NCBI GenBank assembly: GCA_003553485.1 | Contig: PWEJ01000112.1 | Span: 1 to 64,000, forward strand | DNA: 64,000 nt | Source of the DNA: Halanaerobiaceae bacterium | GTDB lineage: Bacteria > Bacillota > Halanaerobiia > Halanaerobiales > Halarsenatibacteraceae | Direction of reading: 5' to 3' | Shown: positions 7,730 to 63,573 of the stretch, piece after piece | Layout of the letters: each line of letters starts with the position of its first letter | Numbering within the stretch: position 1 is the first letter of the stretch | Translations under genes and position numbers: made by a program | Notes under the pieces: generated by a model | What the model saw: the letters and a program-made list of their open reading frames with translations, nothing else | Databases searched by the model: none | What the model was told of the DNA's origin: nothing

Positions 7730-10700
7730 TTAAACTCGCAGGCCAGTGATAAATTCAGTCAATAGTCCAACCAGGGAGCCCGACCAACCATAGAGCTTGA
7801 GCTTGGTGAGATAGGGGCCAGCAAAAGAGTTAAATAAATCTTCTATGGCAGCTGGTTCCATGTTTTCTACCTGTTTAATTGCTATTTTTTTAATTTCCAG
7901 GGTATGCAGCAAAGCCTGGAAATGGTCTTCTAAACCGGCTATAGAATTAGTCAATAGCAGATTAAAGATAAATTCCAGGCTTTCCTGGTTTATGGCCTGA
8001 GAATAATCTCTGGTTGAACGAGATATGTGACAGTCTAATATGTCTTTTAACTCCTCCAGGAATTTATCCTCCTGCGATAAAGAAAGTATAAAATTATGCA
8101 AATCCCGGGATAAAACTTCAGGTCCTAATATGTCTTTAAGCTTGATAGATTCCTTTCTTTCCAGTAGGAAATTCTGCCCCAGGGCAAAGATTGAGAATAA
8201 CTTATCCTCTATTTTAGCTTTTTCCCCTCTGGTCAGGACAGAGTTATTTTTTTCAGCAGAAGGTTTTAATCCTGTAAAGCTCTGCCATATATTAGCGGGA
8301 CTTATAACATATAAACTAGTTTCAACAAGGAATTTCAAACCAGGTTCAATGATTTGTGAAAGTTTTTTGTTTTCTTTATCATCTAAAACTGTTATAAAAC
8401 TAGATATTTGTCTATCAAATATCTCTTCCCCGGCCAGAAAACCTTTTTGCCCATATTTAAAATCAGCCAGGCTGAGTTCTAAATTCCAGCCTATCTCGAA
8501 GAAGCGCCGGAAAAAACGTTGAAAGTTTCTGGCAACATCGTCTTTTTCCAGTAAAATAACAATCAACTGCTGCCAGTCTTCACTTTTAGCTCTTTTAAGT
8601 ACCTCTTCCGCTGTTCCCTGGCTAATTTTAATAATAAAGGGCTGTAAAATACTTTTCAAGGCCCGGCGATTGGCATTTAAAAATTCAGGCAATTCATCAT
8701 CCAATAATATATCAATTATTTCATCTAAGGTACCCCTGCCATCTGTTAAATAATAAGCCCCCCTAAAGAGGGCAGAGCTTATCCAGCCCTGTTGAAATTC
8801 CCCAGATTTCATCTCCTCTTCTAGTATATAGCTGGCAGCATCTTTGATTTCAGCTCGATTTTTTTGAAAATAATCCTCTAACCTAACAATAAAGAAGTCT
8901 AAAATAGAGTTGAAATTTTCTTCCAACAGGAAAATCAAATTTTCTCCCCAATCACCTTCAGTCTTCTTATATCTTTGTAAATAATCCTGAAAAACCTTGC
9001 TGACTTTCGGTATTGCCCTGCCTTCCTTTAGGCTACCTAACAAACCTTCCACAGAGGCTGTGGTAATTCTACTCCTGCTTGAGGTTGGAATAAGTTCTTT
9101 GATATTTCTTGCAGATAACTCCTCTACCAGAAGCCCCTGGCCTAAAGAAATAATTTGTTCCAGGCTCTTTTGCTTGTAATTAGCTAACTTTTTGTCTTCC
9201 TTATCTCCCGAAGCTTTAAATAGTCGTTGCCCGTAATCTATTGATTTATCTAGCAAAAATTCCACCAGGTTATCTTTTTGGTCAGAGGAAATATAGTTAT
9301 TTAGAGCTTGATCTTTGGTTAGAAAATAGTCATTTATTTTCAGTATAATATCACTTAAAATATTTTCCTCTATCTCTATCTCCTGATATACCTCGATTAT
9401 ATTTTCTTTGATTTTAAGCAATAAATCTGAAGTAATTTCCCAGTTTTCTATATTTCCCACAAGTCCCTCTGATATTTTTTCGCTATCCTGATAAATAAAA
9501 TCCGCCAGCCAATCTACGGTTTTGGTTGCAATTAAAGTGCTGCTGACCCTTGTTAGGGCTCTAACTCTGCGATAATTGTTTTTGCTCATTTCTGCATGGA
9601 TTAAATTCTCAATTTCTGAGCGCTTCTGTTGGAACAGAGAGCTGATCCGATAAGGCTCTAACAGGTCATCCTGGACAAAATCCCCTACAGCTATAGCAAA
9701 TCTTTCCTGATTGCGAGCAAATAAGCCCGGGGTCAGGGGCACCTGTAAACCAGCAATCTTCTTGGGTTGGTAGGGTCTGAAAATCATTTTTATTGCCAGG
9801 ACATTAGTGAGAAATCCTACAAAACCATAGACTAACATAGCTATTAGCAACCGACCAGGTCCAGCAGTTGCTGCCAGCAGACCTCCTCCTAAAATTTCTA
9901 ACATCAGGCCAGCAATAAAACCTAACAAACCACCAAAATAAGTTAGAGGTTTCAACTCTGTCCCCATAAAGCTTTCCACTACCTTGCGCATATCCTCAAC
10001 AGAAAGTTGGAATAAATTATCTGCCACTGCCTGACTAACTCTATCGCGTAACAACTCGGGAAGGTTGTTTTCAATAAGTTCCAGAAAGAAAGCAGTCATC
10101 CGCTCCTGATAATCATCCTGCAGCTCCAGCCGGTCAATTATCTTAACCGGGCTTTCTTCTTTCCATTGAGCCAACCAACTCTCAATACTTAACTCTAAAA
10201 AATCAGAGAGCCGGTCAGCCAACAAGGCATTTAATTGATATTCTTTAAAGCCTAAAGATCTATCAGTTAATTTATCAGTGGTAAAGAGTAAAATTATTTT
10301 TCTCAAAGAACTGGCAAAGTTATCATCCTGAGCTGCTGCTGAAAATAACTCAACCAGTGCTTTGTTAGCTTTTTGCTCTGCTGAAAAATTATGTATCAAT
10401 GTTGCTAATTTATAACTAACCTCTTCTGCTGCTCTAGGAGAAATTATTATTTTTTTGCTTATATTGCATAAAATATAGGGTAATTCCCTGGCCAATCTGC
10501 CAGCAAATTCTTCGCCGACTAAGTCTTCCAATGAGAGGTCATTTAATTCCCCGGAAAGTTTAACAATAAATTCACCAGGGGAAAAATCTTTAGTGAAATA
10601 ATCTTTAAATTTTGCCAGCAAAAATTCATACCAGGCAGTTTTATCGAAGAATTCTAGCTCAGAGATTCGGTAAAAAAACCAGCCCAGGCTTTTCTTTTCA

Positions 10701-26348: not shown

Positions 26349-27785
26349 TTAGTCATTTTTGACCAACTTAAGTTGTAATACTTTTTCAGTTTTTTCGGTG
26401 ACCTTAACCCGTTCATCTATTCTTTCACCAGCTAACCAAAGAATTTTTCCATCCTTATCAACTAACACCGGCAATCTATCTCGTTGATCCAGAGGGATTT
26501 TATTATTTATCAAATAATCTTTAACCTTCTGGCTTCCCCCTAAACCTAAAGGATAAAAATAATCCCCCTCTTCTCGGTTCCGGACAAATACTGGAAAGGC
26601 AATTTCAGCATAATCTAATAAAGCAGTATTTCTTTTAAAGGCCAGAGTCTTCCAGTTAGAGGGTAGTTTTCTAATCTGAGCTGAGATAAACTGTGAGTCA
26701 AAAAGCTTAACCTTGCTTCCCGGCACGATTTTTTTGCAATAATTGGTTCTTTCAGCCTGGAGAGCCTGCCAGATACTGTCCCGAAAAGATATTTGGCCAT
26801 ACTCTACTCTTACTAATAAATTTTTAGGGAAATGATAATCCCGGGCTGGCCTATTTTTTCCCTCTTGAGCTGCCTGAGAGATTATGGCAACAATTTCATC
26901 GTAATGTTTTTGGTAAAAGCCCTGCTTTGATGATAATAACTGCTTGATTATAAATCTAATTAATCTTTTCTGCAAGACCGGGTCTAAAGAAGCAATATCC
27001 TTACAATTAAAGTCCAAACGATGTTCCTCTGCCCTTTGTATTAAATTATGATATAAGTTTTTGCTGATTTTAACCATGAATTGATTTTCACCGGTAATAA
27101 TTTCAGCAGTAGAAGCAAGGCTACTTATAATTTCTGGATTAAAATGGGTCTCCAGATAGGGAAGCAATTCATTACGAATGCGGTTTCTGGAATATTTTAA
27201 AGACTTATTGCTTTTATCTCTTCTGGGTTCTAAATTCCTCTCCTGGCAGTAATATTCAATAGTTGAGCGCTTAAATTTTAATAAAGGCCTAATTATTTTT
27301 AACTCCCGATAATAACTAGTCGGTTTTATTCCCTGTAACCCCTCAATACCACTGCCGCGAAAAAGATTAAAAAGCAAAGTCTCTATGCGGTCATTTAGTT
27401 GATGACCCAGAGCTAAAATTGGCAGTTCAAGTTCACGGGAATATTTATAATAAAAAGCCCGGCGAATTCTGCGGGCCAATTCCTCTGTCCCCGCCTGAGT
27501 TTTCTCAGCTATTTCAGGCAAATTAATCTCTTCAATTATACAGGTTACATCTCTTTCCTGACAGAAGGCCTGAACAAACTTTGCTTCCTCTGAAGAAGCT
27601 TGCCTTATACCATGATCAAGATGAAAAACAGTTAATTCAAACTCTTTTTCTTCACTATAACGATAAAAAAGATCCAGTAACGCTAATGAATCAGGCCCAC
27701 CTGAAACTCCTAATAAAATACCACTGCTGGAGGAAAAAAAATTTTGTTCCTGACAGTAGGATTTAAATTCATTAAATAAATTCAC
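26349..27785 (-). CDS. tilS: tRNA(Ile)-lysidine synthetase
   Basis: A 478-residue N-type ATP pyrophosphatase. SGGPDS at 28-33 is the ATP loop. The C-terminal domains (LDYAEIAFPVFVRNREEGDYFYP..., VKDYLINNKIP) are those of the long, Bacillus-like TilS. It converts C34 of tRNA-Ile(CAU) to lysidine so that AUA is read as Ile. The start is GTG with GGGAGAG upstream. The one tRNA with CAU and a T-T-C-A-T-A-C loop in this window looks like elongator Met rather than its substrate. Confidence 0.93.
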   Translation of the reverse strand: MNLFNEFKSYCQEQNFFSSSSGILLGVSGGPDSLALLDLFYRYSEEKEFELTVFHLDHGIRQASSEEAKFVQAFCQERDVTCIIEEINLPEIAEKTQAGTEELARRIRRAFYYKYSRELELPILALGHQLNDRIETLLFNLFRGSGIEGLQGIKPTSYYRELKIIRPLLKFKRSTIEYYCQERNLEPRRDKSNKSLKYSRNRIRNELLPYLETHFNPEIISSLASTAEIITGENQFMVKISKNLYHNLIQRAEEHRLDFNCKDIASLDPVLQKRLIRFIIKQLLSSKQGFYQKHYDEIVAIISQAAQEGKNRPARDYHFPKNLLVRVEYGQISFRDSIWQALQAERTNYCKKIVPGSKVKLFDSQFISAQIRKLPSNWKTLAFKRNTALLDYAEIAFPVFVRNREEGDYFYPLGLGGSQKVKDYLINNKIPLDQRDRLPVLVDKDGKILWLAGERIDERVKVTEKTEKVLQLKLVKND

Positions 27786-27941: not shown

Positions 27942-28889
27942 TTATTTGTTTATTTGTTCTTGCAGAAGCCCATAAAGAATATCCTGGTCACTGACAGTTA
28001 TCTTACTCACAGCAAAATTTTCCATTAAAGCAGCTAAAATAGCTGCTCCTGCCGGTATAATATCAGCTCTTTTTTCTGGCAGGCCAGGAGTTTCCCTGCG
28101 AGCTATAATATCCCGCTTAGCTATTCTTTCTATTTGTTTATTGACCTCCGTTAAGCTAAGCTGAGTTCCTTCTATTAGTTCTCTTTTATAAGTCGTCATT
28201 TTATTTTTAATAGCAGCTAAAGTCGTAATAGTACCCCCCACTCCAATAACAGCTGATAAATCAAAGTCAAGCCCGGCTGCCTGGTGGATTGTTTCTTCTT
28301 TTATGGCTTTAATCTCCTCTGGAGATATCTCTCTATTGGGATTAGCAATAAATCTTTCAGTTAAGCGGACTGCTCCTACCTGCAAGCTATGGAGTTGAAT
28401 TTCATCTTTTTCTCTGATGATAATTTCCGTACTCCCCCCGCCAATATCAATAACCGCTCCCGGAGTAGTCTTTCTACCTATATTAGCCCCTAAATAGGCT
28501 AAGCGGGCTTCTTCTCTGCCCGAAATAATTTCTAAATTCAAATTCGTTTTTTGTTTAATTTTATCTCTGAGTAAATTATCATTTTCAACATCTCTTAAAG
28601 CGCTGGTCCCCACCATCCGATAACTATTTACCTGATATTCTATCATTTTATTCTTAAAGTATTTAATAGCGGCTATAGTTTTCTTAATAGAACTTTCTTC
28701 TAACATCTTGTTTTTTTCTAATCCCCTGGCCAATCTGGTGGTTTTAAGATCATAAAAAATTGGTTCAATGCTAATCTGTTGCTGAGACTCCCTCTCTATT
28801 GGCTCCCTGCTTTTTATTACTTTGATCTCAGCTATTAATAATCTGCAGGAATTGCTGCCAATATCTATTGCTGCTGATAATTTATTGAT
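27942..28889 (-). CDS. Ppx/GppA family phosphatase with a non-canonical start codon
   Basis: The exopolyphosphatase/ppGppase fold is complete: AAIDIGSNS phosphate-1 motif near the N terminus, GTSALRD, ISGREEARLAYLG, VIDIGGGSTE, VGVGGTITTLAAI and a C-terminal LYGLLQEQ. The frame upstream of DIGSNS contains no ATG, GTG or TTG before an in-frame stop near 28947. A strong GGGGAGGAG (28905-28897) lies just before ATA (28892) and ATC (28889), so one of these near-cognate codons is the likely start; the coordinate given uses ATC. A TTG at 28733 would remove the active site. It overlaps the DUF501 stop and is probably translationally coupled to it. The substrate (polyphosphate or pppGpp) is not resolved. 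Confidence 0.8.
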   Translation of the reverse strand: MNKLSAAIDIGSNSCRLLIAEIKVIKSREPIERESQQQISIEPIFYDLKTTRLARGLEKNKMLEESSIKKTIAAIKYFKNKMIEYQVNSYRMVGTSALRDVENDNLLRDKIKQKTNLNLEIISGREEARLAYLGANIGRKTTPGAVIDIGGGSTEIIIREKDEIQLHSLQVGAVRLTERFIANPNREISPEEIKAIKEETIHQAAGLDFDLSAVIGVGGTITTLAAIKNKMTTYKRELIEGTQLSLTEVNKQIERIAKRDIIARRETPGLPEKRADIIPAGAAILAALMENFAVSKITVSDQDILYGLLQEQINK

Positions 28890-29451
28890 TATTATTCTCC
28901 TCCCCGGATAAATACTTTTGACACAGATTACAATCTTGCGATATTATCAATCTCTTACTAACCTCAGCACCTACAGGGTTATCATAATCAGCATAGTAAT
29001 GGGCAAAATGAGTGTGCAAACACTTTAAACCAGCTTTATCTTTTATGCCCCCTACGCCAGAATACAGAAGAGTTTTTAGTAAATTTGCTGAAATTTCCCG
29101 GGCCTTACTTTTATCTTCTTTAGATAATAATTGTCGTCGCAGAGCTGCATATTCTTTATGGGATTGCTGTAGTTTTTTCGCAAACTTCAAGTCTTGTTGA
29201 TATTTATCTGTTAACTCCTTCAATAAGCCCTGATCTTCCAAGCGACCTATCTCTTTTCGCATTCTAGGACAGGATAACCAAAAAATAGTTGGCGATATCA
29301 ATTCCCCGGTGAAGGGTTTTAGCAATAGGAGCTGCGGGAAACCTGCCGGGCATTTTTTTATAACTTTAAAAACATTGGTTAAAGCGGAATCAAGCTGGGC
29401 AGCTATTATTGTTTTTTCCCTCTGACCGGGATAGGGAAGCTCTTTATTCAT
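28882..29451 (-). CDS. DUF501 family protein
   Basis: A 189-residue protein. PTIFWLSCPRMRKEIGRLED and LKCLHTHFAHYYADYDNPVGAEV are the hallmark blocks of DUF501, with conserved cysteine and histidine residues that suggest a metal site; a late DCNLCQKYL adds two cysteines. The function is unknown, but the gene commonly adjoins Ppx/GppA genes, as here. I chose the ATG at 29451 because GAGGG lies eight bases before it; a TTG five codons upstream has no such site. Confidence 0.8.
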   Translation of the reverse strand: MNKELPYPGQREKTIIAAQLDSALTNVFKVIKKCPAGFPQLLLLKPFTGELISPTIFWLSCPRMRKEIGRLEDQGLLKELTDKYQQDLKFAKKLQQSHKEYAALRRQLLSKEDKSKAREISANLLKTLLYSGVGGIKDKAGLKCLHTHFAHYYADYDNPVGAEVSKRLIISQDCNLCQKYLSGEENNNQ

Positions 29452-48401: not shown

Positions 48402-48478
48402 TGGTTGCGGGGGCCGGATTCGAACCGACGACCTTCAGGTTATGAGCCTGATGAGCTACCAGACTGCTCCACCCCGCG
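48402..48478 (-). tRNA. Initiator tRNA-fMet(CAT) with an A29-U41 pair
   Basis: The unpaired C1-A72 end (CGCGGGG ... CCCCGCA) and CTCATAA loop mark the initiator. The anticodon stem reads TCAGG/CCTGA, so the usual three G-C pairs are reduced to two, with A29-U41 in the first position. Encoded CCA. Confidence 0.95.
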
Positions 48479-62558: not shown

Positions 62559-63476
62559 TTAATTATGTAAATATTTTCTTGCTGTAAATTTAGTGATTAT
62601 TAATCGTTCTTCTCCTGGCCAGTTCTGGTAGGTATCCTGTAATTTTCTTTTGTCATTAAAATAAGCGATCAATGTCGGGCCACTGCCACTCATCTGTACA
62701 TGGTCAGCACCAAAACTATATAATTTTGCTTCTAAATCAACCAGGGCTGGAGCTAATTTTTTGCTGACTGGCTGCAGAATATTATACCAGCCTTCCTGCC
62801 AGGTAATTTCTTTTTTCTCCTTGAGCAAAGATACTAACTCCTCTAAAGAATAATCTTTAAAACGATCAGGGAGAGTAGAATTTGGCTCTTTTTCCTCCTG
62901 CTGGGCTAAAAACATGTTATCATAGAGTTTATATACTTCTGCTGTTGATATCTTTAAGTTTGGATTTAATAACAACACCTCTTGCTGTAAAAGATCAGGC
63001 AGAAAAAGTAATTCTTCACCTCGCCCGGTAGCTAGAGCTGTCCCTCCTGTCAGACAAAAGGGGACATCCATGCCAAGTTTTTGACCAAAATTCTGTAACT
63101 CAACTAAGCTCAATTCTAAGTTGAACAATCTATTCAGGCCTCGCAAAACCGCTGCGGCATCAGTGCTACCGCCAGCCAGTCCCGCTGCCAGGGGAATGTT
63201 TTTCTGTAAATATATCTTCACTCCCGGTATTTTTTGAGGAAAATGCTCTTGTAAAAGTTTAGCCGCCTGCCAGGCTAGATTATCTTTTCCTCCTGGCAGT
63301 TCATCTTCAACTTCACCTTTAAGATTAATCAATTTTATCCCCTGAGGTACCGGGGCTAAAATTATTTTATCGGCTAAAGATACAGATTGCATTATCATTT
63401 CAACTTCATGATAACCATCATCAAGGAGACCTAAAATATTCAAAGCCAGATTGATCTTAGCCCTGGCTTTTTCCAC
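62559..63476 (-). CDS. ispE: 4-diphosphocytidyl-2-C-methyl-D-erythritol kinase
   Basis: A 305-residue GHMP kinase. AKINLALNILGLLDDGYHEVEMIMQSVSLAD is the family start, PLAAGLAGGSTDAAAVLRGLN the ATP loop, and VQMSGSGPTLIAYF the third motif. It acts in the MEP isoprenoid pathway. The start is GTG at 63476. It is the first gene of a unit with the AIR synthase-related protein. Confidence 0.94.
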   Translation of the reverse strand: MEKARAKINLALNILGLLDDGYHEVEMIMQSVSLADKIILAPVPQGIKLINLKGEVEDELPGGKDNLAWQAAKLLQEHFPQKIPGVKIYLQKNIPLAAGLAGGSTDAAAVLRGLNRLFNLELSLVELQNFGQKLGMDVPFCLTGGTALATGRGEELLFLPDLLQQEVLLLNPNLKISTAEVYKLYDNMFLAQQEEKEPNSTLPDRFKDYSLEELVSLLKEKKEITWQEGWYNILQPVSKKLAPALVDLEAKLYSFGADHVQMSGSGPTLIAYFNDKRKLQDTYQNWPGEERLIITKFTARKYLHN

Positions 63477-63573
63477 AATTTTGCCTTTAACTTCAGGATG
63501 ATTGGCGATTTTTCAACACCACCCTCAAATTAGTTAAAACTATAAAACCCAAAAACTTTTCTTTACCTCTGTT

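Follow-up and report, generated by a model that had tools for sequence, protein, structure and literature searches.

A ppx/GppA-family gene that appears to start at AUC or AUA in a Halanaerobiaceae bacterium, and predicted near-cognate starts in Halanaerobiales

How is a gene of the ppx/GppA phosphatase family translated when its reading frame offers no ATG, GTG or TTG ahead of the first conserved motif? The question is raised by the minus strand of a stretch of 64,000 nucleotides (the window) from a Halanaerobiaceae bacterium, where a computed open frame at 27942-28946, its upstream TAA included, carries such a gene (27942..28889, minus; 315 amino acids read from ATC 28889, 316 from ATA 28892). 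The upstream end of the frame is marked by two in-frame stops (28944..28949, minus), TGA (28949-28947) and TAA (28946-28944). As the earlier note had stated, no canonical start lies between them and the motif DIGSNS: none of the 26 codons from TGA-TAA to GAT 28865 of the motif is ATG, GTG or TTG. This absence is by itself weak evidence, because a random run of 26 sense codons with the same GC content would be free of all three starts with a probability of 0.255. The missing start is considered real because the first canonical in-frame codon, TTG 28733 (28731..28733, minus), lies inside the conserved domain, 52 codons past ATC 28889 and beyond DIGSNS, and has no Shine-Dalgarno sequence (+0.2 kcal/mol), and because a strong Shine-Dalgarno sequence stands directly before near-cognate codons.

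Judged from its sequence, the gene is intact: 307 codons are open from DIGSNS onward and the conserved motifs are preserved. The Ppx-GppA domain (Pfam PF02541) is matched at 7e-51, with 173.8 bits against a cut-off of 27 and thus above the gathering score, and this match is the only one in the bacterium's own genome (G000). TIGR03706 (exo_poly_only) is matched at 9.5e-68, but its 228.7 bits stay under the curated cut-off of 307, and therefore the gene is not named an exopolyphosphatase proper; the best solved relatives found by phmmer are exopolyphosphatases (1.5e-29, alignment from residue 6). Upstream, ppx adjoins a DUF501 gene, as it does in relatives (28882..29451, minus, ATG 29451; PF04417, 9.3e-39). 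The stop of that gene, TAA 28884-28882, overlaps the ppx start, and the ppx frame is shifted by +1 from that of DUF501. The downstream neighbour (26349..27785, minus) looks tilS-like, judged from its sequence. Among the 41 genomes searched, own included, DUF501 was matched in 40 and ppx in 39, with no ppx match in G024 (62% complete) and G039. Related to the protein itself, the same-genus Ppx sequences (L018/G002, L024/G001, L027/G003) carry, past roughly query residue 200, about 24-59 additional residues in which S, E, K and P are abundant; the stretch is absent here (lengths counted by eye).

The Shine-Dalgarno sequence, GGGGAGGAG (28897..28905, minus), gives -12.5 kcal/mol against an assumed anti-Shine-Dalgarno sequence. 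Three candidate start codons follow it (28887..28895, minus), ATA 28895, ATA 28892 and ATC 28889, at GGAGG spacings of 3, 6 and 9 nt, respectively; in the draft assembly the ppx start sequence reads ATAATAATC. An equal or stronger Shine-Dalgarno is present in 20% of 202 genes of the same genome. The GGAGG-to-start spacing, read in 88 of the 202 genes with each start chosen by its Shine-Dalgarno, was 9 nt 12 times, 6 nt 10 times and never 3 nt. The energy is -12.5 kcal/mol for ATC 28889 and ATA 28892 alike; narrowing the window leaves ATC at -12.5 and puts ATA 28892 at -11.3. AUC is backed by the precedent of infC, whereas ATA 28892 aligns without a gap with the TTG of relatives; if a one-codon gap is allowed, their TTG-AAT-AAA aligns instead with ATC-AAT-AAA. 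The predicted ppx start is either one of these two codons, AUC 28889 or AUA 28892. The proposal of the earlier note, initiation at ATC 28889 or ATA 28892, stands as the best reading, given the strength and spacing of the Shine-Dalgarno and the infC gene of the same genome at AUC.

The infC gene was used as a positive control. It was matched in 39 genomes, and among the 30 loci read the computed start after a GGAGG-type site is ATC in 29, own genome included, and ATT in the remaining one. No canonical codon at all is present upstream in frame at 10 of these 30 loci; in the own infC frame there are one ATG and one GTG, both inside the Shine-Dalgarno. From these infC starts it is very likely that the lineage initiates at AUC, a use already reported for infC of Streptomyces (PMC5472188).

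The picture at the ppx orthologues is a different one. The start region was read at all 39 ppx loci, own included, as the earlier note had proposed in order to see whether orthologues share the near-cognate start. The outcome was negative: at every one of the 38 other loci one or more canonical codons, often TTG, lie between stop and motif, and 0/38 lack one. Two relatives within the family, G005 and G007, have TTG in this region (G007 also GTG); at Halanaerobium loci, positions -9 and -6 relative to the motif are mostly TTG and position -8 is ATG, ATA or ATC; the genomes of the same genus (G001-G003, 52-56% identical) have an ATG farther upstream. Among the ppx loci read, the near-cognate start is thus private to this genome. 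No closer second genome for comparison was found among the 38 genomes of the order. A search for ppx relatives with the single protein found none; a search with an alignment gave 562 loci, of which the best 80, mostly distant, were kept outside the start-codon tally. Since the near-cognate ppx start is unconserved, a base error, a polymorphism or a recent mutation is possible.

Whether ppx is alone in its genome depends on how such genes are sought. A first survey of 396 genes (548,393 bases of the own genome) ranked them by how much coding-like sequence precedes the first canonical start, and ppx came 4th of 396. The top three are ORFs following in-frame TAG, TGA and TAG, and they look recoded rather than start-less, so by this coding-potential ranking ppx is alone among true start-less genes. 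A survey based on Shine-Dalgarno sequences was added because the first ranking missed genes without strong codon bias. It recorded the codons at a strong site (<= -9) in genes having no canonical codon better than -5. A home-made ORF finder, our own thresholds, ORFs of >=80 codons and a sample of each genome were used, which makes any rate derived from it an estimate.

Such genes number 15 out of 396 in the own genome; nine have a strong orphan site, and at seven of these AUU, AUA or AUC (AUH) is found. Over 300 neutral codon triplets the corresponding count averages 2.35, has its 95% value at 4 and peaks at 7. The seven cases are infC, ppx, mgtE (ATA), an ORF of unknown family (ATA; no family hit) and three less clear ones, namely ispE and two on C60, one of which has an ATG inside its Shine-Dalgarno. 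The same comparison gave 2 for G001 (95% value 3), 8 for G005 (maximum 5) and 8 for G023 (95% value 6, maximum 8); G001 by itself, with AUH at 2 of 4 orphan sites and 1.1 expected, carries little signal. When these four genomes of the order are pooled (own, G001, G005 and G023; 1126 genes), AUH is enriched: it occupies 25/32 orphan Shine-Dalgarno sites against 9.4 expected (P 7e-9), and 22/29 against 8.4 when infC is excluded (P 1.1e-7), about 8 of these 22 hits being expected by chance and some being ambiguous. The top codons are ATT (14 vs 3.5, P 1e-6), ATA (8 vs 4.2, P 0.05) and ATC (4 vs 1.4, P 0.05), and the excess in the order persists at five threshold pairs, with P from 1.1e-7 to 1.5e-4.

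The outgroups were Ilyobacter pILYOP01 (0-400 kb), pCY360 (50 kb) and pSC2 (50 kb), 365 genes together, and gave AUH at 3/7 orphan sites against 2.2 expected (P 0.37); 50 kb of E. coli, outside the pool, gave 1/3 against 1.2. The samples from E. coli (37 genes), pSC2 (19) and pCY360 (48) are too small to say much. An excess specific to the order is suggestive and unproven, because the outgroups are few (7 orphan sites) and also give 3 near-cognate cases. In G039, where two of three RHS-like repeat copies with identical upstream sequence were dropped and the orphan sites went from 8 to 6, AUH is present at 5 of 6 against 1.7 expected (P 0.01). It is predicted that about 1-2% of the sampled genes of the order start at AUU, AUA or AUC, a range that comes from about 14/1126 genes above chance without infC and 25/1126 raw. 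The description of near-cognate starts as rare, made in the earlier note, needs qualifying to that extent.

In some of the surveyed genes the match to a family profile reaches close to the near-cognate start, which speaks for such starts. The mgtE gene of the own genome, read from ATA, aligns its residue 19 to position 15 of TIGR00400, above cut-off; a YneB resolvase of G023, also read from ATA, aligns residue 3 to position 1 of NF049883, above cut-off; a CcpN-like regulator of G023 with ATT aligns residue 1 to position 1 of NF053704, far below cut-off. Further candidates were noted in G023 (L220 and L210: YneB resolvase with ATA, GntR-like with ATA, 3H-domain regulator with ATT) and in G005 (L256, L257 and L246: sodium-solute symporter with ATC, Opp/DppB-like permease with ATC, cupin HTH regulator with ATA). 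Within the window, ispE (62559-63512, minus) was tried as a second case, with ATC 63509 and a Shine-Dalgarno, and was set aside as ambiguous: AAAGG precedes a GTG at codon 12, and in 17 of 18 matched relatives the top match begins at query residues 9-15 (in G010 at 70, near a contig end).

Several other readings of the locus have to be weighed. The most serious of them, though we consider it unlikely, is that the 172-contig draft contains a base error or the polymorphism of a minor strain, so that ATG really stands at 28895, 28892 or 28889 and the start is a normal one. A single-base change at any of the three codons would produce ATG, and both the canonical starts of the 38 other loci and the lack of a second close genome in the order search fit this possibility. 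However, two further genes of this genome, infC and mgtE, likewise lack a canonical start supported by a Shine-Dalgarno, similar genes occur in G023, which is a one-contig genome, and no other gene among the 396 without an in-frame stop ahead scored as high as ppx, so start-destroying base errors appear to be infrequent. It is improbable that the gene is decaying, that is, that its start has been lost on the way to a pseudogene or to trace expression: the missing canonical start agrees with this, and the two genomes out of 41 without a ppx match (G024 and G039) suggest that the gene may be dispensable, but the open frame from the motif onward, the intact motifs and a strong Shine-Dalgarno at the correct spacing argue against it.

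The two remaining alternatives bypass the near-cognate codons altogether. Synthesis of Ppx fused to DUF501 through a +1 frameshift is suggested by the overlapping frames, which differ by +1, and is nonetheless very improbable: the DUF501 stop is preceded by CAA, whose tRNA would not be expected to pair with the +1 codon AAT; the overlap varies in length in relatives, which keep their own start codons; and a fusion would not explain why a strong Shine-Dalgarno stands precisely here. Hardly more credible is a start at TTG 28733, giving a protein of 263 amino acids: this is the first canonical codon, but the DIG[ST]NS-type motif of the relatives would be removed, and the energy already given leaves it without a Shine-Dalgarno ahead. 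Amber or opal read-through into ppx was ruled out, since the nearest stop is TAA and such read-through cannot rescue the gene.

The best explanation, which we regard as probable, is that ppx is a real, translated gene that starts at AUC 28889 or AUA 28892 and represents one case of a wider habit of the order. The 30S subunit would be placed by the strong Shine-Dalgarno and would probably often come from a ribosome that has finished translating DUF501 at the TAA in the overlap, re-initiating within a few bases. Translational coupling between DUF501 and ppx is likely, and we infer it, like initiation itself, from this arrangement. In E. coli, re-initiation is described as using initiator tRNA and IF2 and as being reduced by excess IF3 (PMC2268962). 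On AUC or AUA the initiator tRNA would form two good pairs and one mismatch and would bring in fMet; in vitro, IF3 is reported to favour strong and disfavour weak third-base pairs (PMC10158994). The expression of ppx may thus be low but useful and sensitive to IF3, as for the GTC start of sigR. At the level of the order, the same explanation would cover infC at AUC and the approximately 1-2% of genes that have AUH suitably spaced behind a strong Shine-Dalgarno and no ATG, GTG or TTG supported by one.

Known systems resemble this locus in part. Near-cognate infC starts, ATT in E. coli and ATC in Streptomyces, are described together with autoregulation by IF3 (PMC5472188). As in those systems, ppx has a strong Shine-Dalgarno followed by AUH, and the infC of the order itself is at AUC in 29/30 loci; unlike them, the ppx start is unconserved in orthologues, and no self-loop is expected because ppx does not encode IF3. 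A closer parallel may be sigR of Streptomyces, a gene other than infC that, according to the same source, starts at GTC and is repressed by IF3 (PMC5472188). ppx is likewise a non-infC gene whose start is non-canonical and whose translation would be expected to be low and sensitive to IF3; however, the start of sigR (GUC) is reported as functionally shown, while that of ppx (AUC or AUA) is known from sequence alone. In S. aureus, infC and ccpN are given as starting at AUA and cvfC1 at AUU with an extended Shine-Dalgarno (PMC13009471). That report attributes to the AUA of ccpN up to 30% relative efficiency in rich medium (PMC13009471). The likeness lies in the extended Shine-Dalgarno that accompanies a weak start in ccpN and cvfC1 (PMC13009471), and the difference in that those two starts are described as conserved and mapped by Ribo-Ret, unlike that of ppx (PMC13009471). 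Four non-canonical sites are reported in S. aureus (PMC13009471), fewer per gene than our survey predicts for the order.

The initiator tRNA-Met lies in the same window (48402..48478, minus). It has C1 x A72 and an anticodon stem UCAGG/CCUGA (A29:U41, G30:C40, G31:C39), or AU/GC/GC; A29:U41 replaces the G29:C41 of the three GC pairs. These pairs are described as almost universally conserved and linked to fidelity (PMC7531240, PMC7005279). The AU/GC/GC motif, CAGGCTCATAACCTG, was found in 34/59 genomes of the class and 29/38 of the order, and the canonical motif, CGGGCTCATAACCCG, in 20/59 of the class, with 1/38 in the order (G013) and 19/21 outside it; neither motif is present in nine of the 38 order genomes (G002, G003, G007, G010, G015, G024, G027, G036 and G037). 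With an initiator-arm pattern the AU stem was confirmed in initiators of the own genome and of G001, G004, G011, G013, G016, G022, G025 and G031, and outside the order in G039, G045, G048 and G050. ARAGORN adds G005, so that an AU initiator is confirmed in 10/38 order genomes; in the other motif-bearing ones, Halanaerobium G023 included, the 15-base motif alone was matched and the arm pattern was not. The own genome has one match to the AU motif and none to the canonical motif, in a draft assembly in which other stem variants were sought with one D-arm pattern. Among 119 evenly drawn genomes of the phylum the AU motif occurs in three (own, one of the order and G160), that is, in 1/115 outside the class. 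No description of an AU/GC/GC initiator in Halanaerobium was found in the literature searched. Regarding other families of the class, both genomes of f9 (G039 and G050) have the AU/GC/GC motif only, and three of six in f10 (G040, G045 and G048) have both motifs, as if caught between.

Loss of one conserved GC pair may help to make near-cognate starts tolerated, although any causal role is something that we infer; the tRNA variant may be linked to such starts by a correlation that covers one order and G039. Ayyub et al. in 2018 are said to have found that mycoplasmas with an altered initiator stem favour non-AUG starts. The initiator stem of M. pneumoniae is reported to be AU/GC/GU (PMC10568206), and the Halanaerobiales tRNA is like it in being without the G29:C41 pair. 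Unlike mycoplasmas, Halanaerobiales have AU/GC/GC and make strong use of Shine-Dalgarno sequences. The own IF3 (G000 L075:3612-4124, minus) keeps arginine at the position aligned to R131 of E. coli IF3, whereas IF3 polymorphisms are reported for M. pneumoniae. At the position aligned to E. coli R99 it has glycine, which could mean a change in start-codon checking.

A broader reading is put forward tentatively, as plausible rather than probable: Halanaerobiales would have a relaxed start rule, in which G29:C41 has been lost, AUU, AUA and AUC serve about 1-2% of genes as ordinary weak starts, standard annotation cuts such genes short or overlooks them, and ppx is a recent recruit whose output is tied to the level of IF3. 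The genes concerned would be infC, ppx and mgtE here, and transporters and regulators in relatives. Gene callers are stated to accept mostly ATG, GTG and TTG only (PMC5472188), so it is likely that near-cognate genes of the order are given wrong starts or missed. Should the tRNA variant prove to be linked to the near-cognate starts, Halanaerobiales would offer a natural test, outside mycoplasmas, of the role of the GC pairs in start choice; ppx and about twenty more predicted starts provide concrete codons for ribosome profiling.

Candidates for recoding were also observed elsewhere in this genome. On G000:C90 (L085, minus, about 8500-8900) a frame that looks like an MttB-like methyltransferase contains an in-frame TAG (VAGG-TAG-ADSKVADAQAAHEKS), and PylS is matched above cut-off at G000:C157:34238-34960 (276 bits). 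Together these two observations make it very likely that UAG is decoded as pyrrolysine in this bacterium. On G000:C155 (92300-93500, minus, outside the window) the frame of a protein of unknown family has TAG 18 codons after an ATG (MEIYINGEKQPSAKFSGL-TAG-SDEIISKIQEEW...), where UAG read-through is possible. On G000:C35 (L193, plus, about 4056) a frame that looks MsrA-like starts FWGPDAYFG right after an in-frame TGA, which would stand where the catalytic Cys is expected, and the product is a probable selenoprotein. If true, pyrrolysine and selenocysteine would coexist in this genome.
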